A stretch of DNA of 64,000 bases from Candidatus Binatia bacterium (GCA_026415395.1 JAOAHD010000007.1:496001-560000), one strand, 5' to 3'; positions 8,006 to 64,000 are shown, numbered from the stretch's first letter. Notes: generated by a model not told the origin, from the sequence alone. Program-made: numbers and translations.

Positions 8006-9550
8006 TTAGTACCTCGCTTCGATTGTGATCGATCCAATGTGCCGCTCGTACTCGAACAATTTTTCCTCGCGCAAACCGATGAGCTGCGTAGAGTTCGTGA
8101 AGTTCAGTTGGCCGAAGTAAGCGGCAGTGACACTAATATGACCGGTGAGGGCCCGGCGAGCAAGCAAAATTATGCGGTGCTCTTGGTCTTTCCGGTTGTT
8201 GCTCGGCTCGCGCTCGTACACCTTGTGGCGAAAGGCGTAGTCGAATTGGGTTTCGACAGACCACGGCAAAGCCCAGGCCAAGCCAGCGCCAATCTGGTTT
8301 GCCGTATACGCGAAGGCGCGTGAGGCGCGACCAGGAGCGGTGTCCTCCACTTCGAAGAAATAAGAAACGGTCAGGTACCGCTGCCGGTTGCTTTGTAGGA
8401 AGAAGACTTGTGCGGCACCGGGGACGTAATTGATCGAGTCACGAATGTGGAACTCTGGTTTTAAGAAGTCTCGCCGGCGCAGTTGGAAGGAAAGCTCGGT
8501 CCAACCGAGATTCCCTTCGTCGATCCGTGCAAAGGGCAGGAGACTACCTTCGCGTAAGAAGTCGTCGGTGTCGAGCAAGTAATAGTCGTACCGGCCGAGG
8601 GCACCCCACTCTCCCCATTTGCGGCGGTCCGTATAGGCCACTTGCGCGCGGTGGTCTTGGAGGTCGAACGGCCGCAGTTCAAAGTGCAGGCTTTGGTAAA
8701 ATTCATAGCCTGCGGCCAACTGTGCGGTGGGCGTCCGCGCGATTTGGTAGGAGCCGCCAAACTGGAAGGTGGCACGCCCGTCGGCCTGACGGGTAACTCC
8801 TACGTCGCTCTTGGCGAAACTTGCGCCGAAATCGCTGGAGGGTGCGAGAATGACGTTGCTGTCGTACTGCAGGCCGAGGCTGCCGAACAACGTCCACCGC
8901 TCCCGCTCGATCTCGGCGATGCGCGCGAGGAACTGCTGCGATTGCTCGGCGACCGGAGTGCCAGGTTTGAGTTCGCGGACCCGCTCGAACTCTCGTTTCG
9001 CCCGCTGCCAAAATCCCTGCTGGTAATCCAGTACCCCGAGGTGATAGCGGGCAACGGCTTCGAGTTCGGGATCCTTCTCCAGTGCAGCCCAGAAGTAAGA
9101 GCGGGCCTCGTGAGCGCGATCGAGGCGGAAGAGGGCGATGCCAAGGTACAACAGCGCTTGAGCTTCGAGCTCCGCAGCGTTGCGCGCGTACTCGAGCGGT
9201 TGGATGGCCTTGCTGAACTCTCCGGCTTCTGCCAACGCGATCCCTAGGTCCAGTGCGGCATCGAAGAGCTTCGGATTCAACTCCCACGCTTTGCGCAGGG
9301 CCTGGATCGCCGCCGCACGGTCACCGGTGCGACTCAGCGCCACGCCTCGGTAGTACCACGCGAGGGCATCGAGCGGATCGGCTTCCACGGCATCGCCGAA
9401 CGACTTGAGTGCTTCTTGCAATTGGCCTGCGTGAAATTCCACCAAGCCCTTATTGTACAGGCGTTTGGAGCGTTCGCTTCCGCCGCTCGGAGAAACCAGG
9501 GCAGCAATCGCTGCCAACACCACCGCCACCCAACCAGACAGTTTCTTCAC
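8006..9550 (-). CDS. TPR plus outer-membrane beta-barrel protein (Slam-like architecture)
   Basis: A 514-residue exported protein. After a signal peptide (residues 1-24) come about five tetratricopeptide repeats (29-215), for example a repeat ending in [20 protein letters not shown]. The rest (about 225-514) alternates aromatic and polar residues with short turns, and the chain ends in EARY, an aromatic C-terminus typical of beta-barrels inserted by BamA. N-terminal TPRs joined to a C-terminal barrel is the layout of Slam/DUF560 proteins, which move lipoproteins to the cell surface. I infer only architectural likeness, not homology. The start is GTG 9550, overlapping the TGA of the upstream lipoprotein gene by 4 bases (GTGA). 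Confidence 0.75.
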
Positions 9551-11748
9551 CGTCGTACTCCAATGGCGATGTCGACCGGTGTAACGCCGACGCCGAAGAT
9601 CGCCGTCGCTAACAAGTCACGAGGGACATCGATCACGCTCACGCTATTGGTGAACGAGTTTGTGACATAAACGAACGTGCCGTCTGGACGGATTGCTAAC
9701 GAAGTCGGTTCTGAGCCGACCGGAATGCGTGCCCGTAAGGTCAACGTGGCCGTATCCACCACAGCGACTTCGTTTGAGCCACGACTGACCACGTAGGCGA
9801 CCGTTCCATCCGGTGTTACGGCGACCGATTGCGGTGAACGCCCCACGGATACACGACCGACCGTCTCCGGCGTGGCGAGTTCGACCACGGTCAGTGAATT
9901 GTCTCCGCCGTTGGCAATGTAAAGGCGTGCATCGTCAGGCGACACGGCAACATCTTGCGGCCGCGACCCAGCCGGGACGAATCCGAGCGTTGAGCCCGCT
10001 GGAACGGCGATGATGCGCACACGATTGTCGAATTGTTCGGCGACAAAGGCGCGCGCCGATCTTTGATCGAATGCCACGCTAGTCGGCATGAACCCCACGG
10101 GCGCCTCGGCCACGACCCGCAGGGTCGATCGCTCGATAATGCTGAGCGACCCACTCAGTTGGTTTACCACGGCAATCCAGCGGTCGTCCGGCGAAACCTG
10201 GAGAGCGTTGGGACGCGAACCTACCGCAACCGTGGCTGCAAGGCGGCCCGAATCGAGATCGATCGCCGAGATCTGATTGGCGAACTGATTTGCAACGTAG
10301 GCCCAGCGAGCATCGGCACTGAGGGCGATGGCTGTCGGGTAGTCGCCGGCGGGGATGCTGCCGATCAGCCGATTGGTTGCCGTATCGATCACCGCCAGCG
10401 ACGCATCGTTCAAGTTCGCGACATAAGCCAGCGTTCGCGGCTCTGGGGTAGGAGATGGGGTCGGTGTCGAGCTTGCAGTCGCGGTTGCAGTCAGCGTTGG
10501 CGTTGCCGTCGGGGTAGACGTGGGGCTCGGAGTGGCTGTGGACGTGGGAGTCTCCGTCGGTGTGGCGGTAGGAGTGAGGGTGGAGGTCGGGGTTGCCGTA
10601 GGAGTTGATGTGGGTGTGTTCGTCCAAGTGGTGGTCGCGGTTTGTGTCGGCGTTTGTGTGGGGGTCTCTGTTGGCGTCGTTGTGGGTGTGTTCGTGGGTG
10701 TAAACGTGGGGGTGCTGGTTGGGGTGAAAGTGGGAGTCGACGAGGACGTCGCTGTTCGGGTTGGCGTTGAAGTAGCGGTGTACGTGGGGCTGGCCGTTGG
10801 AGTAACGGTGGGCGTGGGAGTCGTAGTCGCTGTTGGGCTAGAGGTCGGCGTTGGCGTGCCGGGGGTCACTTGGAAGGAATACGTAAAGTCGACTGTTCGA
10901 GGGTTTGCCCCGGTTGTGCTCGCATTCACGCGCAGGCTGCCCGCGCCCCCCGTGCTGGTGTGCCAGACGCCAGTGCCCCAGTAACCGCGCACGCCCAAAT
11001 TGGGCTGAGTGCTGCACGGAGAAGCCGAGGTATCGTCGCAGGCCTCCCACGACATCGGCAGAACGTTGGAGGCACCACCCGCAGATGCAACGACGCGGAG
11101 GCTTGCGAGGGCGATCTCGTTGGCGGCATCAGCCACGAGCACTTCTACCTGGACGGGTGCAACCGCAGTGCTCCCGGGGCGCGGGGAGAACGGAAGCACG
11201 AATGGTTGGGCGAGCATCGAAATCACCCCCGAGCCGCTGCGGCTACCGGCAAGGATGTGCACCTTAGTCGGGCGACTTTCGTAGGTCGGAGCTGCCGGCC
11301 GATCGTTCGCGCATGCTGTTCCGATGCCCGGCGGATCGGTGCCGCAGATGTTCGGGGAGGCGAGCCCAGGTGGTGCAGGTGCAAATTGCTCCGCAAACGT
11401 GGCCAACTGCACGGTTGCCTCGCCTTCGGCCAGCGCATCGAGCACGAGTATCCTCGACCCAGTGACAGGGTCGGCGGGAACGTCGCCCGGCTGCACTGCC
11501 AGACAACAGTTGCGATTTGCTGCGTCTGTCACCACCACGCGCACGGTGACCGCCGCCTTCGGTAGGCGAGAAGCAAAGCTGCCATCCGCCTGTTCCCACT
11601 GCGCTTGCACAGCAAGGCGTCCTACGTTGGGCGACGGCTGGCCGTTCCCTCCTCCGGAGCAGCTTGCGGCCGCAAGTGCGACGGCAAGCACGCCGGCGCG
11701 CATGAGCCACCCGATTGGCCCCGTTTCGATCTTCGACCTCCCACCCAT
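9547..11748 (-). CDS. Lipoprotein with Thr-Pro linker and YVTN-type seven-bladed beta-propeller
   Basis: First gene of the coupled trio. The 733-residue product begins with a lipoprotein signal peptide ending in LAAASC (Cys30). It has an N-terminal beta-rich region (30-295) of Ig/Big-like character, a 140-residue Thr/Pro/Ser linker (about 295-437), and a C-terminal propeller of seven roughly 42-residue blades (437-733) with repeated YVAN, VSPD and VAVVDTAT elements, typical of surface-layer YVTN proteins. The frame is open to 12180, but only Met 11748 (or 11703) gives a proper signal peptide. The stop overlaps the next start by 4 bases. Likely an envelope-anchored, perhaps surface-exposed, binding protein of unknown ligand. 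Confidence 0.82.
10440..10860 (-). repeat. Low-complexity Thr-Pro coding repeat
   Basis: About 420 bases encode degenerate PT, TPT, TPTxTPT units in the lipoprotein above. On the plus strand the tract is almost purely G/T with few A or C (units like GTnGGnGTnGG), a very strong strand asymmetry. Such linkers are extended, probably O-glycosylatable spacers that hold a domain away from the membrane. Confidence 0.85.
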
Positions 11749-27715: not shown

Positions 27716-30487
27716 TCAACGCGAACGCAAGAATACGGAGCGCGTCCGGCGCCGGTGGCGCCACCAAAGCGCTAGAGCGCCAGAAAGCCACAAGAGGCCG
27801 GCGCTGCGCGAGCGGGGAGCGTGAGGGTCGAGGTCGCACGTGCACGCATCGCGATCGAGTGGCCCAAGGATTGTGGACGTCGGCGTGGGGCTGGTGGGAG
27901 TCTTTGGCGGCTGCGTTGCCGTGGGAGTTGGCGTCACCCCGGTGCCGGCAGTGGGCGTGGCACAGAGGTCTTCCGCTTCGAGGCAAACTTCACCGCTAGA
28001 GCACGGCGTCTCGGCTGAGACACATTGCCGTGAATTTTCATCACACGCTTCCACGCCGTCACAAAACAGCCCATTGTCGCAATTGCGGCTTTGCCCGCCC
28101 CCGCAGAAGCCACCCGTGCAGACCTCGTCAACCACGCAGAAGAGCCCGGTTGAACAAGGGGTGCCATCTGGACGCTGGTTGGGGCACTGGCCGGTACGCG
28201 GGTCGCAAGTGCCAACATCGTGGCACCCACCACCAGTGGTGGAACAGTCGCGCGGTGTTCCTACACAAACACTCTCAACGCACCGATCGTTGATCGTACA
28301 CAGGTTGGCATCGGAGCAGGGCGTGCCATCGGGCCGCGGGTTGGGGCAGAGCCCGGTGGCCGGGTTACACACCCCCACGTCGTGGCAGCCATCGGTCACG
28401 GAGCAGTCCTTGGGGGTGCCCACGCAAATGCTCTGTTCGCAGCGGTCGCCGGTGGTGCACAAGTTGGCGTCGGAGCACGGGGTGCCGTCCGGCCGGGGAT
28501 TGGGGCACAGGCCCGTACTGGGGTCGCATGCTCCCACGTCGTGGCAGCCATCGGCTTGCGAGCAATCGACCGGCGTGCCGCGGCAGCGGCTTTGCACACA
28601 CTGGTCGTTGCGGGTGCACAAATCGCCGTCGTCGCACGTGGTCCCATCCGGCTGAGGATTCGGGCACAGCCCGGTTTCCGGATTGCAGGCACCAGGGTCG
28701 TGGCAACCGTCCGCCGTGGAGCAGTCGATCGCTTCGCCACGACAACGGCCCGCAACACAACGGTCGTTTTCGGTGCACGGGTTGCCATCCGAGCAAGGGG
28801 TGCCGTCGGGCCGCGGGTTGGGGCAGAGCCCCGTTCGCGGGTCACAGGCACCCGCGTCGTGGCAACCATCCGCACCGGTACACTGGACTTCCTCACCGAT
28901 ACAAGTGCCAGCCACGCAGCGGTCGTTCTCGGTGCACGAGTTGCCGTCGTCGCAACTAGCGCCCTCAGGTTTCGGCGGGTTGGAGCACAAACCCGTTGCG
29001 GGGTCGCACACCCCAGTATCGTGACAGGCGTCCAGGGGCGTGCACACCGTGGGTGTGAAAATACAATTTCCGTCGGCACCGCAGCGCTCCGTCGTGCACA
29101 GATCGGCGTCGCGACAATCGGCGTCGACGCGGCAAGTCGGGAGCAGGTTGGTTTGCACGTAGACGTCGCTGTGCTCGTTCAAATCTCCAGGGGTGAGATT
29201 GGAAGCCAACGTGGAATAAGCCGCATACAGCGGCTGGCAGGACAATCCCGGCGCGATATCGAGCACAGCCGCATTGGCCTGCTCTCCATTGGCATTGCGG
29301 TCGATCAAGAAGGTGCGTTGCGAGCCTAAGTCGCGCACGAACAAGCTCGCGACTTGGTTATAATCGTCGCCCACAAGATTCGTTGCCTCGCTGCCAAACG
29401 CGACATAGCGACCACTGCAGTCGATCGTCGGGGCGAAGGAAGCAGCATTGCTGTCGCGCCCGAGGAAGCTCACGCTGACACGCTGCGTCTGCTTCGTCGA
29501 ACGGTCGTGTACGAAAACGTCGACGAGACCGTTACGATCATCGGCAACCAAGTTCGTAGCGATCGACTTGAAGGCGACGAACCGGCCATCGGCACTGATG
29601 CTGGGAAGGATACTGTCGCCGTTGCCAATTTCGCCTGAGGAGCTGCGGCTCACGAGTTCGAGGGTGCCGGTTTCGCGATCGCACACGAATACGTCCAGCG
29701 CACCATTGGTATCGTCGGCCGCGAAGTTATTTGCTGCCGACACGAACGCGACGAAGCGGCCGTTGGCGCTGATTGCGGGTTGGGACGACGGACCGTTCCC
29801 TTGCACCGCAGAGCAAATGCGCTCGGTCACACCGGATTCACGATCCCGAACGAAGATGTCGGCAACCCGGTTGGTGTCGCCCTCGACCAGGTTGGTGGCG
29901 AGCGACTGAAAGGCGACCAGCCGCCCAGCAGCATCGATGCTCGGGGACGAACTTGCGCCATTGCCTTGCTCCCCGGAGCTACTCACGCTCACCCGCTCGG
30001 TCCGGCCTACCGTGCGCACGCGCACGAACACGTCGGTGACTCCATTGGTATCACCGGCAACCAGGTTGGTTGCGTCCGAGTCGAACGCCACAATCGAGCC
30101 ATCGCTGCTGATCGCAGGGTTATCCCCGCCGCGATGGCTAGGGCCGTTTGCTTGCTCGCCTGAGCTGCTCACACTCGCCCGCTCCGTGTGGCCAGCCTCA
30201 CGGTCGCGCACGAAAATGTCTCGCGCCTCGTTTGTGTCGCCGGTCACCAGGTCGAACGCGTCCGAAAAGAAAGCGACAAAGCGTCCGTCAGCACTCATCG
30301 CCGGGCCGGCACTGGCAGCTCGGCCCGCTTGTCCGCTCCGGCTCACACTCACGAGTTCGGGAGCCGATCCGCCTAACTGCCCGAGCGAGGTCGTGGCCCA
30401 CATCGCGATTGGCAACCACAGTGCATACGACCATCGTGGCAAACGTCGCTGTGTGTCATGCCCAACCCATCCCTTAACCGAACCCAT
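27716..30487 (-). CDS. Large surface protein: WD40-like repeats, Cys-rich repeats and MYXO-CTERM-like tag
   Basis: A 923-residue exported protein. After a signal peptide (about 1-37) come roughly nine TolB/PD40-like blades of about 50 residues with the recurring elements GRFVAF, SxATNLVxGDTN and DIFVRDR. They are followed by about five tandem 53-residue Cys-rich modules (each with CTxNDRC, DGCHDxGAC, TGLCPNPxPDGTxC), a Thr-Pro linker, and a C-terminal tail with a CxC (ACTCD), a hydrophobic stretch (AGLLWLSGALALWW) and RHRRR. Such a tail is what MYXO-CTERM sorting signals look like. I chose ATG 30487 because the open frame to 30757 lacks a signal sequence. Probably a cell-surface or secreted binding protein. 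Confidence 0.82.
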   Translation of the reverse strand: MGSVKGWVGHDTQRRLPRWSYALWLPIAMWATTSLGQLGGSAPELVSVSRSGQAGRAASAGPAMSADGRFVAFFSDAFDLVTGDTNEARDIFVRDREAGHTERASVSSSGEQANGPSHRGGDNPAISSDGSIVAFDSDATNLVAGDTNGVTDVFVRVRTVGRTERVSVSSSGEQGNGASSSPSIDAAGRLVAFQSLATNLVEGDTNRVADIFVRDRESGVTERICSAVQGNGPSSQPAISANGRFVAFVSAANNFAADDTNGALDVFVCDRETGTLELVSRSSSGEIGNGDSILPSISADGRFVAFKSIATNLVADDRNGLVDVFVHDRSTKQTQRVSVSFLGRDSNAASFAPTIDCSGRYVAFGSEATNLVGDDYNQVASLFVRDLGSQRTFLIDRNANGEQANAAVLDIAPGLSCQPLYAAYSTLASNLTPGDLNEHSDVYVQTNLLPTCRVDADCRDADLCTTERCGADGNCIFTPTVCTPLDACHDTGVCDPATGLCSNPPKPEGASCDDGNSCTENDRCVAGTCIGEEVQCTGADGCHDAGACDPRTGLCPNPRPDGTPCSDGNPCTENDRCVAGRCRGEAIDCSTADGCHDPGACNPETGLCPNPQPDGTTCDDGDLCTRNDQCVQSRCRGTPVDCSQADGCHDVGACDPSTGLCPNPRPDGTPCSDANLCTTGDRCEQSICVGTPKDCSVTDGCHDVGVCNPATGLCPNPRPDGTPCSDANLCTINDRCVESVCVGTPRDCSTTGGGCHDVGTCDPRTGQCPNQRPDGTPCSTGLFCVVDEVCTGGFCGGGQSRNCDNGLFCDGVEACDENSRQCVSAETPCSSGEVCLEAEDLCATPTAGTGVTPTPTATQPPKTPTSPTPTSTILGPLDRDACTCDLDPHAPRSRSAGLLWLSGALALWWRHRRRTRSVFLRSR
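28155..28950 (-). repeat. Five tandem 159-bp repeats encoding Cys-rich modules
   Basis: Each unit encodes 53 residues with eight to nine Cys and the core DGCHDxGAC...TGLCPNPxPDGT. The units differ at many third positions and some residues, so they are diverged rather than recently copied. A degenerate unit flanks the array at each end. The plus strand shows long mirror open frames here, which are shadows caused by the repeat and GC bias. Confidence 0.85.
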
Positions 30488-30764
30488 ACGACCTCCGTCA
30501 CCATCGTTGTGCCCCGCCGCGTTTTGCGGGTGCCGAGCAGCTCGCCGCTGCCTTTTACCGCAAACCAGTACAAATCCCAACAGCGAAGTGCCCGTTCCTA
30601 GCCCGTTTTTCCTGGCCCCGATGGACGCTTGATGTATTGACAACGCGTGCCAAACGCCGAGAACGGGCGTTTGCGGGAGGCCGGCCTTCGGACAGAAACG
30701 TACGATCTGGTGCTCTTCAGAAGCGCAAGGCTCACTCCGAGCTGTCCCGGAGCACACCGACTGG

Positions 30765-57009: not shown

Positions 57010-58164
57010 TTATCGAATCGGGTAGTGGTATCCCAGGTCCACTGCCCCTACCCGCACGCATTCGAGCTCGGTGCCTGGCGCGCAGCCCGGCGGGCAGCAG
57101 CCGAGCCCCGTGCAATCCGGTTTGTTGTCCACCTGTGTAGTGCGTTGCGCCAGGATACCGACCAGCTCGGCATCGGTGTTTGGATCGCCAGCATCCATAA
57201 TCGCGCTGCCGCCCAAACATTCGTCGTTCGTTGCGGGGATGCGGAATCCATCTTGTGCCCCAGGGTTGATCCAGAAGGGATCGACGTTCAGGTCGTTGGG
57301 CCCTGGACTGACGTTGAAGACACCATCGCGGTTCAGGTTGTAATTCCCATCGAAGCCCACGCTCGCGGCATCGGCGACGATGCCGAAGGGGGTGTTGGCA
57401 ATGAAAATGTTGTTGCGGGTAAACACATCGGAAGCGGGTAAATCCGGCGCACCGAGTTGCAAGCCACTGCCGAGGTTGCCGTAAAACGTGTTGTTGAGCA
57501 CGGCGACGGTGGAACAGTTGAGCAAGGCCAAGCCTGCCCCGCCGTTGCTCAGCAGCAGGTTGTTCCAAACCCTCACTTGGGTGGAGCCAATAATGCGGAT
57601 GCCGTCGCGCGTGTTGTTGCGAACAATCAAATTGACCAGGGTCAAATCGCTGCTGTTGCGCACCTCGATGCCGGCACGCGCGGCATTGCGGACCGTAAAC
57701 CCGTCCAACGTGATTCCTTGAACGCCGTCTAGGCTGATCGCTGTGGCGCCTCCAGCGGCATTGATCACCACCTCGCCAGCGCCGGAGCCAGTGAGTTGCC
57801 CGGTCACGTCGGCAACGATGCGAACCGAGCCGTTGACATCCCCCGCGCCCAACTGGAAGGGTTCGTACACCCCGGCAGGCACAGCCACGAGCGCCCCCGG
57901 CGGAGCGATGCGAACCGTGTCGACGATACTGCGCGTGCCAGGCAACACCTCCACCGGCGTGAGCGTTGGTGTAGGTGAAGGCGGCGGCACGGTGCGCGTG
58001 GGGGTGAATGTGGGCTCACCGGGGCGCAAGGTACGCGTGGGTGTCCGCGTCGGTGTTGCGGGCGTAACCGCCGGGCCACCGTTGCCCCCACCTCCGCAGC
58101 CTTCGAGGAGAACGAGCAAGTAAAGCGCTGAACCGAGTAAACTCCAGCTCATCCGTGCCGGCAT
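57010..58164 (-). CDS. Right-handed beta-helix lipoprotein with Thr-Pro linker
   Basis: A 384-residue exported lipoprotein with lipobox LLEGC (Cys23), a Gly-rich stretch and a TPTRTPTRT-type linker up to about 75, then a parallel beta-helix (about 90-290) with right-handed ladder repeats such as GITLDGFTVRNAARAGIEVRN, LVNLIVRNNTRDGIRI and VWNNLLLSNGGAGLALLN. The C-terminal part has Cys-rich loops (DCTGLGCCPPGC) and ends in LGYHYPIR. Parallel beta-helix folds usually bind or cut polysaccharides (pectate-lyase-like), but no catalytic residues are evident. The start ATG 58164 follows AAAGGA. Confidence 0.85.
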   Translation of the reverse strand: MPARMSWSLLGSALYLLVLLEGCGGGGNGGPAVTPATPTRTPTRTLRPGEPTFTPTRTVPPPSPTPTLTPVEVLPGTRSIVDTVRIAPPGALVAVPAGVYEPFQLGAGDVNGSVRIVADVTGQLTGSGAGEVVINAAGGATAISLDGVQGITLDGFTVRNAARAGIEVRNSSDLTLVNLIVRNNTRDGIRIIGSTQVRVWNNLLLSNGGAGLALLNCSTVAVLNNTFYGNLGSGLQLGAPDLPASDVFTRNNIFIANTPFGIVADAASVGFDGNYNLNRDGVFNVSPGPNDLNVDPFWINPGAQDGFRIPATNDECLGGSAIMDAGDPNTDAELVGILAQRTTQVDNKPDCTGLGCCPPGCAPGTELECVRVGAVDLGYHYPIR

Positions 58165-58335
58165 GATTGTTCCTTTCGCCGATGGGTTCACCCGCGCCGT
58201 TTAGCCATAGGGCGCGAGCGAAGTCCACCGCTGAACTCCGGAGCGCGAGGGAGGGCGACTGGTAGGCCGCTTGCCCCGACACGCGTGCACGCCGTCCGAC
58301 TCCCACAGACTGCCTCCGGAAGCCCCATCCCCCAG

Positions 58336-59916: not shown

Positions 59917-60423
59917 TCAACCACAACCAACCAGGGCACACCGTACCGCCGCAATCAGTTCTTCGATGGTGGCGCTGTCGCTGCCATCTTGATCGATCGC
60001 GGGGCACAAATCGACGCTCTCGCCCGCCAAAGCAATGCTCACGGAACGAGCTATCTCCTCCACGGTCACTTCGGAGTCTGCGTCGCAGTCGCCCACCGGC
60101 ACGCTGGCCTCGGGGCAAGGGCCCACGATCTCGACCAATGGGCCTGCGTCACGCCACGAGCCGAAGCTCGCGACAATGTCGGAATCCCGACTTGCGGCAT
60201 CGACGCGGACAATTTCCGTGGTCGGTTTTCGACCTGAGAACCAGGGGCTCGACCTGGCCACCAGCACTGTTCCTCCGTCTGTCGAAGGGGCCGCTCCCAA
60301 CGCGAAGCTCTCGGGTTCGCTTTTCCAAACAACGCCCAAGGTACCGTCAGGCTCCAGCGCCAGCAGTTGGGAGCGTTTTCCTGACCCGATGGGAGGACAA
60401 CAGGTGAGCAGGAGGGCTTGCTC
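59917..60423 (-). pseudogene. In-frame continuation with dockerin-like EF-hands
   Basis: After the TAA the same frame reads EQALLLTCCPPIGSGKRSQL, propeller-like strands, then two EF-hand-like calcium loops: D-C-D-A-D-S-E-V-T-V-E-E and D-Q-D-G-S-D-S-A-T-I-E-E, each with Asp at positions 1 and 3 and Glu at 12. Such pairs are the hallmark of type I dockerins. Without the stop the whole gene would encode about 479 residues. An alternative is that the second part starts again at ATG 60339 as its own protein. Confidence 0.5.
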
Positions 60424-61356
60424 TTAGGCCGGCGCGACGAGCCATTGCCACGGGGTGAGCGGGAATTGTGTCTCCACACGCAGTGATCCGGATAGATCGA
60501 CAACTCGCCAACGCGAATTCGAGGTGAAGAAATGCAAGAGCTTCTGTCGTGAATCGAATCTCGCAAGGATGAGCCGAGTGGCTGACGGTAGAGCGAACTC
60601 GTTCGCGAGCGTCACTTCGAAGGTCGCCCTCCGCAGCACCAGCAAGCGCACGGATTCGAGTTCGCTTTGTGCGACCACGTAAATCGCCTCTGGTTGGTCT
60701 GGGTCCACAAAGACGGCCGCAACGGTGTCCGGCCTCGTGAGCTCGCGAAGCACCTGACCTGTAGCGGGATCGATGGCGGCCACGGCCTTTGGACCAAAAC
60801 TGTAAATTAGCCCATCGACGGGGTCGCGCACGACTCCGCGCCCCACCCGATCCTCAGCCCAAATACGCCACAGTCTTCGGAGAGAGGGCCACTCGTAAGC
60901 GGCTAAAAATCCGGCAGCTTCTCCCGACTCAATGTGATCTCCGACGTCGAACGGCGTCCGAGAGACGACCGCGGAAACGTACACACGCTGAAGTTGCTCA
61001 TCGTAGTTCAGCTCCGTGACCGTGTGGGACGCTGCCCACATCAATTCACGAGACACTTGCCGGAAGAGCGCTAGACGCCAAAAGGCACGATCCGGATGGG
61101 CGGGGTCGACTGCAGTCAACGTGCCGTTGAGGATGCCGGCCACCAAAAGGCAGCAGGCGGTAGCCGAGGCGTGCAAGCGGGCAGGTGCTGTTCCTCGCTG
61201 ATCCTGTGCCTCGTCGACGGAGCTGCCTTGCGCACTTGAGACAGGCACGTCGACAGCCGACAGCTCTCCATCAGCTGATGTTCGCCGATCTGACGGCAGC
61301 GGCAAGACCGTAGCGGATGCCCAGCCGGCCACGGCCAGGCAAACGAATGCGAGCAA
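60424..61356 (-). CDS. Exported beta-propeller-like protein, N-terminal part before TAA
   Basis: A 310-residue exported protein starting at TTG 61356 with a signal peptide (MLAFVCLAVAGWASA). Then come irregular beta-propeller-like repeats, for example VDGLIYSFGPKAVAAIDPAT and LREVTRPD-type strands with VFVDPDQPEAIYVVA. Sequence in the same frame continues in the family pattern past the TAA at 60424-60426, so this is probably the N-terminal two thirds of one longer gene. Function unknown; it may be a dockerin-bearing cell-surface protein. Confidence 0.6.
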   Translation of the reverse strand: MLAFVCLAVAGWASATVLPLPSDRRTSADGELSAVDVPVSSAQGSSVDEAQDQRGTAPARLHASATACCLLVAGILNGTLTAVDPAHPDRAFWRLALFRQVSRELMWAASHTVTELNYDEQLQRVYVSAVVSRTPFDVGDHIESGEAAGFLAAYEWPSLRRLWRIWAEDRVGRGVVRDPVDGLIYSFGPKAVAAIDPATGQVLRELTRPDTVAAVFVDPDQPEAIYVVAQSELESVRLLVLRRATFEVTLANEFALPSATRLILARFDSRQKLLHFFTSNSRWRVVDLSGSLRVETQFPLTPWQWLVAPA

Positions 61357-61495
61357 ACACAGGAACCTCAGGCGCTTTGGGTTTCGCGGCGTCGCTCCTA
61401 CCTGTCGCGCCAGGCTCTTGCGCTCTCCGCTCGAGGGCCCTCACCGTAGCAGCTCCATCATCGGCTCCGAGTGGCGACAGCAGAATCGACCACCA

Positions 61496-62913
61496 TCAAA
61501 TTGCCACAACCGGAGGCAGGGGACAACGATAGAGCCGAAAGTTGACTGCGGAAATGAGCTCGTCAATGGTTGGTATGCCATCGCCGTCGGCATCCAAAGG
61601 CGGCCAGTGGCTAAGCGCGAGGATTCCCAGGAGAATACGCGCGCTTCGTGTAAGCTCCGCGCTGGTCACGATCCGGTCGTGGTTGCAGTCACCGATGAAG
61701 TTGGGCCTCGTGCCGGCCGCCGCGGCGAGATCCAGGCGGGGAACACTTTGACCGGTGCGGTGATCCACCACTCTCACGCCCGTCCGCACGATGCGCGCCA
61801 GCGTGCACTCTGGCCGGTCATCCTCAACTCCACCTTGCCCGCGCAGTGCGGCAATTGCCCCACTCACATGCGGCGCCGCAGCCGAGGTGCCGCTGCCCCC
61901 TCCGGGCGCGCCGACACCGGCGTTCACGAATGCATCCCACAGGATTCGTGCTCCCGGCGCGAGAACTGTGAGGAACGGGAATGTGCTCGACCGACACCAC
62001 ACGCGGTCCGGGGCACTCGGGTCACCAGGACAGGCGCTGTTCTCTTGCCCGGTCAGCACAGCATCGTATACCGCTCCCACGCTCACAACCCCTGGGATGC
62101 AGGCCGGGATTGTGACTCCCGCGAGACCGGAGCTCCCGCTCGCCGCTACCGGCAGAATACCGAGCCGCCAGAGGTCGACGATGCGCCTGCTCAAATCAGC
62201 AAAGCCCGCACAGGGTTCAGAGTGAAGCGCAGGCGACCCGTCTGTCGGGACAAGCATGAAGCTCATGTTGACGGCCGCCACGCCAAGCGCGGCACCGTGG
62301 TCCAAAATCCAGTCTAGGGCATTGAGGACGCGCGTGAGGGGTTCGTCCGAGGGTTGACACTCTGCGGGAGGAAAAGCCCCCTCCAAAACCCTGAGTCCAA
62401 TAATTCCGGCTGCCGGTGCCACACTGCTGGCAATTCCTGCGACGTAGGTATCATGGAAGGGGGGAGGTCTACGGAAATGTTGTCTGGGTGGGGACAAAGG
62501 AAGTCCTTCGTCCAGAGAACCCTGCAGCCCGACCGGCCCGAACCGTCACGGCACCCCTCTCCGAAAAGAAACTGACTACCGAAAAGGTCGAAGATGAGGC
62601 CGGTCTCAAGAACGGCTATCGACCGCCCCCCGGCCAAGCGCCCCGAAACCTCGGGCTGACGGATGAGAGGGAGGCTTTCGCTGAGCAACGGCTCGATACG
62701 AAAAGTTCGCTGAAGCCCCACCGCGCGGACGTCCGGGAGATCGAGAACTGCCCCCAGATCCTGGAAGGATCGGAGCACCACCGGAATTCCGTTGCGATTC
62801 GGTGGCCCCGACGGTGTGGAAACCACCCCGATCCCGAGTGCCGCAAGCTGGCTCGTGAGCGTAGCACGCTGCTCCCCCAGCAGCCGGCGTTTCAGCGCCG
62901 ACGCCTCGACCTC
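61496..62913 (-). pseudogene. S8 (subtilisin-like) serine protease with dockerin-like EF-hands, frameshifted
   Basis: Joining two frames restores a subtilase. The N-terminal part, in one frame, carries GRSIAVLETGL where VLDTG normally contains the catalytic Asp (here Glu). The His motif is FHDTYVAGIAS, the Asn site VNMSFM, and the Ser site GGGSGTSAAAPHVSGA; the last three are in the other frame. The switch falls at the run of six G at 62459-62464 (C6 on the coding strand); one more C would restore the frame. The C-terminus has EF-hands D-C-N-H-D-R-I-V-T-S-A-E and D-A-D-G-D-G-I-P-T-I-D-E. The altered Asp site suggests the enzyme may be inactive even if the frame were restored. Confidence 0.6.
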
Positions 62914-63504
62914 TTAGGAGCGTATCCAGGCCGGGCTCGTTTTGTCGCGGAAGCGTAAGCGAAGCTTGCCATCCACGAGAGTGGTGTCCAAGTGCAGGAA
63001 CACAGTGGGCTGTTCCCCTCTTTGCAAAGCATCAAGCACTTCTCCTGGAGCCTGCTTAGCGAGTACCCGAAGCTGCTCGAGCTGCCAAATGTAACGGGAC
63101 CCGTCGCGCCAACGGAGCGAGCCTGACGGTCGAGCCTGCAGGGCGCTGCCATTCGCAACCACCTTTCCGGCAAACACTTCCTTCAGCGTACCTTGCGGTG
63201 CCCGCAAGCGCCCCTCGCGAAGAGCGCCTCTCCGTAGTGGTACGGAGAGATTCACGGTTTCCATGCGATCCTTCAGCTCGATTTGAATCGAGCCGCTCAC
63301 TCCGCCTTTAACGAAAACGGCCACCTCTCCCCGAAACAGGCCGCTTTCCGAGGAATCCGCGCGGCGTACCGAACCAGCGATGGCGAGGACTTGAGCCCTG
63401 CTGCCAGTGCCTGCAGGAACTTGAGGATGCATTGAGGAGGGGCTGACCGCCAGCGCAACGAAAGCCGCTGCGCCGCCGAGCGGCCATTTTCGCCGTGTTG
63501 TCAA
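62914..63504 (-). CDS. Exported hypothetical protein; probably the N-terminal segment of the S8 protease
   Basis: A 196-residue frame from TTG 63504 with a signal peptide (MTTRRKWPLGGAAAFVALAV) and a beta-rich region. It ends at TAA 62914-62916 and then, in the same frame, runs into EVEASALKRRLLGEQRATL, which reads like the propeptide of the S8 protease. So it is probably the front of that protein, split by an in-frame stop. It overlaps an upstream frame that ends in a hydrophobic stretch. If the stop is real, this is an orphan secreted protein. Confidence 0.45.
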   Translation of the reverse strand: MTTRRKWPLGGAAAFVALAVSPSSMHPQVPAGTGSRAQVLAIAGSVRRADSSESGLFRGEVAVFVKGGVSGSIQIELKDRMETVNLSVPLRRGALREGRLRAPQGTLKEVFAGKVVANGSALQARPSGSLRWRDGSRYIWQLEQLRVLAKQAPGEVLDALQRGEQPTVFLHLDTTLVDGKLRLRFRDKTSPAWIRS

Positions 63505-63605
63505 ACCGGCCCGCCACGCCAGCCACGGGAGTAGGGCGCATAGCGGCCAGCGGGCCCAGCCGCCGGGGACAATAGCGCAGCCCCCACCGCCCCCGCCGGC
63601 AGGGT

Positions 63606-64000
63606 TCACGACGCGGACTCCGCCCCCGAAATGCTCGGGCACGAGTTCGAAGCCGTCAGGTTCGCCGCATCCGCGTAATCGCTAGCCACAGCATGCAAAC
63701 CTGCGGGCGCGTGCGGCGAGACTTTCACGCGGCAGGTGAATAGAGGCCCGTCGGGAATCGGTTGCGTATTTTCGAAACTCAAGATCACCGCGGCGACCAT
63801 GTCGCAGGTCTCCGGCCATTGCCAGCAGCCGCCGGGCCAGAAGGCGAACCTGCCCTCCTTGCCGATGGCGGGGTTTACCCAGCACTCAGGCTCTCCGGCT
63901 GAGCTTTGCGCGTTGGGCGTGTAGCGGGAATCGAAGAAAATGTTGTGGCTCACGGCTGCAACGGCTGACCCGTTCGCCAAGAAAGTGACAGGTAGCTCCA
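63606..64000 (-). CDS. Cohesin-like domain protein, partial at window edge
   Basis: The frame is open to the right edge and reads ELPVTFLANGSAVAAVSHNIFFDSRY (partial). It then has a hydrophobic VILSFENTQPIPDGPLFTCRV, a pattern I recognise from cohesin/Ig-like domains of secreted proteins in this lineage. The frame stops at TGA 63606. Shifting frame near 63650 gives DGFELVPEHFGGGVRVVN, a run of Gly, then CAIVPGG and a hydrophobic stretch with basic end (WARWPLCALLPWLAWRAGLTTRRK), like a sorting tag. That suggests a single-base lesion, as in the neighbours. Confidence 0.55.
   Translation of the reverse strand, partial: ELPVTFLANGSAVAAVSHNIFFDSRYTPNAQSSAGEPECWVNPAIGKEGRFAFWPGGCWQWPETCDMVAAVILSFENTQPIPDGPLFTCRVKVSPHAPAGLHAVASDYADAANLTASNSCPSISGAESAS

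Follow-up and report, generated by a model that had tools for sequence, protein, structure and literature searches.

What is a cohesin-like gene doing beside two dockerin-like genes, one of them joined to a protease, in a bacterium outside the Clostridia? The question is raised by one end of a 64,000-nucleotide stretch of Candidatus Binatia bacterium (GCA_026415395.1 JAOAHD010000007.1:496001-560000; G000:C7:496001-560000 in our numbering, assembly size 3.69 Mb), here termed the window. It was originally predicted that these genes encode a novel surface complex that displays proteases and propellers. The analysis described below indicates that the window probably holds a decaying copy of a cluster from a large, order-specific, non-cellulosomal cohesin–dockerin surface display system.

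The window cluster and the identity of its domains

The cluster is read from the minus strand in the order cohesin-like gene, MYXO-CTERM-like tail, S8 protease-dockerin gene and propeller-like-dockerin gene (Table 1). The predicted arrangement, a cohesin-like protein next to two proteins with paired dockerin-like domains, one being a protease, is present, while the single open reading frames do not stand as intact proteins, since all three genes are interrupted. The sole match in a PHROGs search was the protease. Searches with the sequence of the propeller-like protein gave no Pfam or PDB match, and its propeller identity is a guess from the sequence. In the same window, positions 57010-58191 (minus strand) encode a protein that combines a right-handed beta-helix with a Pro/Thr-rich linker and has no dockerin.

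Table 1. Parts of the cluster in the order of transcription (positions counted from the first nucleotide of the window)
Feature	Position	Strand	Evidence
Cohesin-like domain protein with signal peptide (full ORF L022:9606-10250, 214 aa)	63606..64000, on to 64250 beyond the window	-	ORF, own-family profile, AlphaFold/Foldseek
MYXO-CTERM-like anchor tail: Gly run, Cys, hydrophobic stretch, basic end	63487..63597	-	Three-frame translation
Whole S8 protease gene	about 63504 to 61496	-	
S8 protease gene start: signal peptide and propeptide-like region	62914..63504	-	Ends at in-frame TAA 62914
Protease middle part, frame unchanged past the stop	62461..62913	-	Translation, alignment of relatives' proteins
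S8 catalytic His/Ser part, then dockerin-like pair	61496..62497	-	PF00082, 32.2 bits
Dockerin-like paired Ca-binding loop-helix domain of the protease	61523..61696 (C7:557523-557696)	-	E 1.3e-23, genome's own 14-row profile, of which the pair is a member
Whole propeller-like gene	61356 to 59917	-	
Propeller-like secreted protein, N-terminal part	60424..61356	-	Ends at in-frame TAA 60424
Remainder of the propeller-like gene	59917..60423	-	Own profile
C-terminal dockerin-like pair of the propeller-like gene	59923..60096 (C7:555923-556096)	-	E 2.5e-22, same 14-row profile, of which the pair is a member

Own-family profiles were built for both domains, since Pfam alone misses most of the system. 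The alignment of the dockerin-like family reveals two loop-helix repeats in 58 residues together with conserved Cys, and the layout is that of type I dockerins (PF00404), a tandem pair of Ca loops with a helix behind each one, within about 60 aa; an AF2 model of the domain places helices after both loops with low to moderate confidence. PF00404 matches 12 of the 14 aligned copies at E<=1 (best 4e-4), and the Pfam dockerin cut-off is reached by some members only, most matches in the genome falling below it. When set against the PDB, the dockerin profile finds dockerin chain 6kgc_B at 5e-4, and generic EF-hand proteins score better than the solved dockerins. One solved complex is matched on both chains, 6kgc_A by the cohesin profile and 6kgc_B by the dockerin profile.

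The window cohesin-like domain scores 13.4 bits against Pfam Cohesin (PF00963; cut-off 24.1) and E 7e-51 against its own-family profile, of which it is itself a member. Matches to PF00963 at E<=1 occur in nine of the 24 family members, and most of the cohesins score under the cut-off; it is exceeded by the copy on contig C16 of the same genome and by a family member in another genome, G044 (28.2 bits, end to end). The family has conserved cysteines in its alignment, and the five best PDB matches of the 24-member profile are cellulosomal cohesins (E 3.5e-4 to 8.4e-4). The structural prediction for the domain near 63.8 kb is cohesin-like: the piece inside the window, short of the first and last strands, was modelled with AlphaFold (pLDDT 66), and the 12 best PDB folds found for it with Foldseek are all cohesins (probability up to 0.93, E 0.095 upward). 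For the adaptor of the genus mate HRbin30, the middle protein of the operon described below, every one of the 50 Foldseek matches listed is a cohesin or a complex containing one (E 7e-9; target TM up to 0.78), and the jelly-roll cohesin fold is thus recognised by Foldseek in both models.

Cohesins, dockerins and passengers across the genome and the order

The proposal to search the whole genome for more genes of both kinds proved fruitful, as the own-family profiles found 54 dockerin-like domains at E<1e-12 and 15 cohesin-like matches, mostly in open reading frames. The dockerin lies at the C-terminus in 28 of 55 reading frames, near the N-terminus in 19 and internally in 8. Nine of ten cohesin loci are found within 3 kb of a dockerin, whereas 7.7% of the genome qualifies (P about 9e-10), and six of seven remain so once same-ORF fusions are removed (P 1.3e-6), both values being measured against uniform placement, a lenient null because genes for secreted proteins may cluster anyway. 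The pattern is repeated more weakly in two other families (genomes G044 and G029), where 8 of 19 and 5 of 14 lie within 2 kb among the dockerins listed, fusions included.

The two domains are also paired in an operon with the order FG-GAP propeller-dockerin, cohesin-dockerin and cohesin-anchor. Three species of the genus have kept it, and so has G044 from another family, where the anchor protein contains two cohesins. The operon is intact in HRbin30 (BEIG01000084), with a cohesin at L076:10001-10441 and the two dockerins at 8622-8804 and 9603-9785. Multi-cohesin scaffoldins carry 5 to 7 cohesin copies; the one of HRbin30 is an open frame of 1974 aa with one dockerin and seven cohesins, and the corresponding gene in this genome has five cohesins. 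In this gene (L056; G000:C7 about 609-613.6 kb, minus strand) the five cohesins lie in successive different frames when compared with the HRbin30 orthologue.

The passengers of the dockerins are diverse. Pfam families in 49 dockerin ORFs include FG-GAP, NHL, PD40 and YCF48 propellers, S8 and trypsin-like proteases, DUF3604, MauG, MbnP and an MtrC-like cytochrome. No cellulase was recognised among the 25 most frequent of the 39 Pfam families in these proteins, and one lectin/glucanase-superfamily match is present among the families listed. The dockerin-tagged MtrC/MtrF-like outer-membrane cytochrome (L084:1958-4705; G000:C2 about 301.0-303.7 kb, minus strand) has 10 CxxCH motifs and is possibly a docked electron-transfer protein. 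Elsewhere, three genes lie side by side (L106:8206-11273; G000:C3 about 243.7-246.8 kb, minus strand), for a MauG-like di-haem enzyme with a dockerin, for an MbnP that matches the dockerin in part and for another dockerin protein.

In a class sample of 145 genomes, both profiles match an identical set of 15, every member of which belongs to a single order; the genomes without a match are listed in part, and a member of the order may therefore lack the system. In a phylum sample of 395 genomes matches come from the two sampled members of that order only. Both domain families are therefore found only in this order of Binatia among the sampled genomes, and such co-occurrence inside one order is phylogenetically a single event. 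The genus also includes HRbin30 (BEIG01) and CALAMI, a MAG of Candidatus Binatia, and through this link the host order appears to be HRBin30 of Binatota/Binatia, whose genomes come from thermal springs (PMC8262859). A Gemmatimonadota candidate (L077; 43% over 33 residues) was rejected, since no cohesin or dockerin profile matched it.

Probable surface anchoring and display, and the lesions of the window copies

How could such proteins be held at the cell surface? Two cohesin proteins (C7:918 kb and C17:139 kb) end in a C-terminal MYXO-CTERM (TIGR03901) over the cut-off, at more than 20 bits, and they account for two of the four matches over the cut-off in the genome; no dockerin ORF of this genome matches the model. 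The tail of the window cohesin is out of frame and has no model match. A PD40 protein with a MYXO-CTERM tail is homologous to one with a dockerin tag (41% over 398 aa, E 3e-56), and two further homologous passenger pairs carry either tag. The window itself (27716-30757, minus strand) encodes a Cys-rich repeat protein that has a dockerin-tagged homologue in this genome and a MYXO-CTERM-like tail of 17.8 bits, just under the cut-off. An MrtX-like CPBP protease is encoded in 7 of 7 genomes of the order tested and in 0 of 7 other class members, with scores of 75-106 bits over the C-terminal half only, under the curated MrtX (NF040593) cut-off of 180 bits. The MrtX of Myxococcus carries out both the cleavage and the anchoring of a MYXO-CTERM protein (PMC11980579).

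Secreted passengers (propellers, proteases, a decahaem MtrC-like cytochrome, MauG/MbnP) carry the 58-residue paired F-hand dockerin with its conserved cysteines, mostly at a terminus. In the most likely mechanism, cohesins, whether single, strung together on scaffoldins or joined to dockerins as adaptors, would bind these tags in a calcium-dependent manner. The MrtX-like intramembrane protease would process the MYXO-CTERM of some cohesin proteins and thereby fix them to the outer surface, and the dockerin would then serve as an indirect surface-attachment tag, an alternative to a direct MYXO-CTERM tail. In its widest form, which we consider evenly balanced between true and false, the model is an order-wide two-tier display, where the dockerin is a sorting tag interchangeable with MYXO-CTERM and the anchored cohesins present dozens of proteins, from propellers and proteases to multihaem cytochromes and copper proteins, on the outer surface of a Gram-negative cell.

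One may ask if the paired loops bind cohesins at all, or if they are ordinary Ca-stabilised modules and the two families merely share secreted-gene neighbourhoods. This is unlikely, even though the dockerin profile prefers generic EF-hand proteins to solved dockerins, a conserved Cys pair is not known as a typical trait of clostridial dockerins, and dockerins are several-fold commoner than cohesins in the genome, since tight operons pair both domains, cohesin-dockerin fusions resembling adaptor scaffoldins exist along with tandem-cohesin proteins, MYXO-CTERM is borne by cohesin and not by dockerin proteins, and both domains occur in the same 15 genomes. A conventional cellulosome shares the domain logic and the multi-cohesin scaffoldins and is nevertheless highly improbable, given that the sequence type and the anchor differ and that the frequent Pfam families of the dockerin proteins include no recognised cellulase. 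A display system of non-cellulosomal type is therefore preferred, and the remaining question concerns the state of its copy in the window. The TAA stops at 62914 (protease) and 60424 (propeller-like gene) were confirmed, and the proteins of relatives align across both, in a single frame at the propeller-like gene. A frame change near 63.64 kb splits the window cohesin from its anchor tail; the G076 orthologue aligns through the cohesin end, the tail and the next gene in frame -2 throughout, which is not the frame of the window cohesin. Alignment of relatives' proteins to the window places the frame change of the protease between 62461 and 62503. At the catalytic Asp site the window protease has ETG (Glu) where relatives, including G076, have DS, so that the S8 Asp/His/Ser triad is incomplete in a copy that also bears a stop and a frameshift; D, H and S are all present in the G076 C7 relative. 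A full-length product of the window copies may thus be absent.

Are these lesions real? The cluster might be intact in the cell, with stops and frame changes being assembly errors or the genes being recoded, and some data speak for this. The dN/dS between cluster copies is about 0.10-0.25, compared with 0.04-0.13 for the intact operon (synonymous sites being near saturation), therefore the proteins were formerly under selection, as the values of about 0.19-0.25 show; in addition, the scaffoldin gene of this genome changes frame twice when set against the open HRbin30 copy, as would be expected from an indel-prone assembly. Yet single indels do not account for two of the four breaks, both being in-frame TAA stops, the catalytic Asp of the protease is lost, and the neighbouring genes, which we take from reading their sequences to be leuA, leuB, truA and lysS, are open at full length. 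Moreover, further copies of the same cluster type, one on C20 of the present genome and two in G076, which is a different assembly, are all broken, at other positions. Assembly error or recoding is hence rather doubtful, and the lesions point to recent decay. The junction between the genes varies as well: in L064, L065 and the window (63487-63600) the frame of the cohesin anchor tail runs on into the next (protease) gene with no intervening stop, and in the C20 copy a stop separates the two.

Relation to known assemblies

The type I cellulosome of clostridia and the Binatia set have in common the cohesin fold, the duplicated Ca-loop/F-helix dockerin, multi-cohesin scaffoldins, cohesin-dockerin adaptors and surface-anchored cohesins, a location that in Binatia is deduced from the tails. 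In contrast to the cellulosome, the Binatia set is without recognised cellulases, its dockerin has conserved Cys and is often N-terminal, the host is Gram-negative, and the anchor is MYXO-CTERM instead of SLH or sortase. Non-cellulosomal cohesin and dockerin modules were reportedly described by Peer et al. in 2009, and such sets are not new as an idea. Ca. Stygibacter has a cellulosome-like complex with a dockerin-tagged S8 peptidase (PMC8542988). It is likewise a non-clostridial uncultured bacterium, and its scaffoldin also has a C-terminal surface-anchoring domain, this being a conserved CTD anchor accompanied by CBMs, whereas the Binatia set uses MYXO-CTERM and comprises about 54 dockerins, mostly on propellers, proteases and cytochromes. 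The closest known systems are thus non-cellulosomal sets such as that of Ca. Stygibacter, and the Binatia system would work like a cellulosome without recognised cellulases. With MYXO-CTERM/myxosortase anchoring (PMC11980579, TIGR03901, NF040593) it shares the Cys motif, the hydrophobic segment, the basic tail and an MrtX-like CPBP protease; it differs in that the tail is also borne by cohesins, which may carry other proteins, and in that MrtX is below the curated cut-off.

Of the predicted novel surface complex, a genome-wide non-clostridial set with propeller and protease passengers holds, while the intactness of the window copies does not and the novelty of non-cellulosomal sets yields to the Ca. 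Stygibacter precedent. Within the collection of papers searched, no mention of dockerins together with Binatota was found, which is weak evidence for novelty. If the display system proves true, cohesin-dockerin assembly would reach beyond biomass degradation and serve general display at the outer surface in an uncultured phylum, and would be linked to myxosortase-type anchoring. It would also offer new Cys-bearing cohesin-dockerin pairs for protein engineering, possibly thermostable ones, since HRBin30 comes from thermal springs (PMC8262859).
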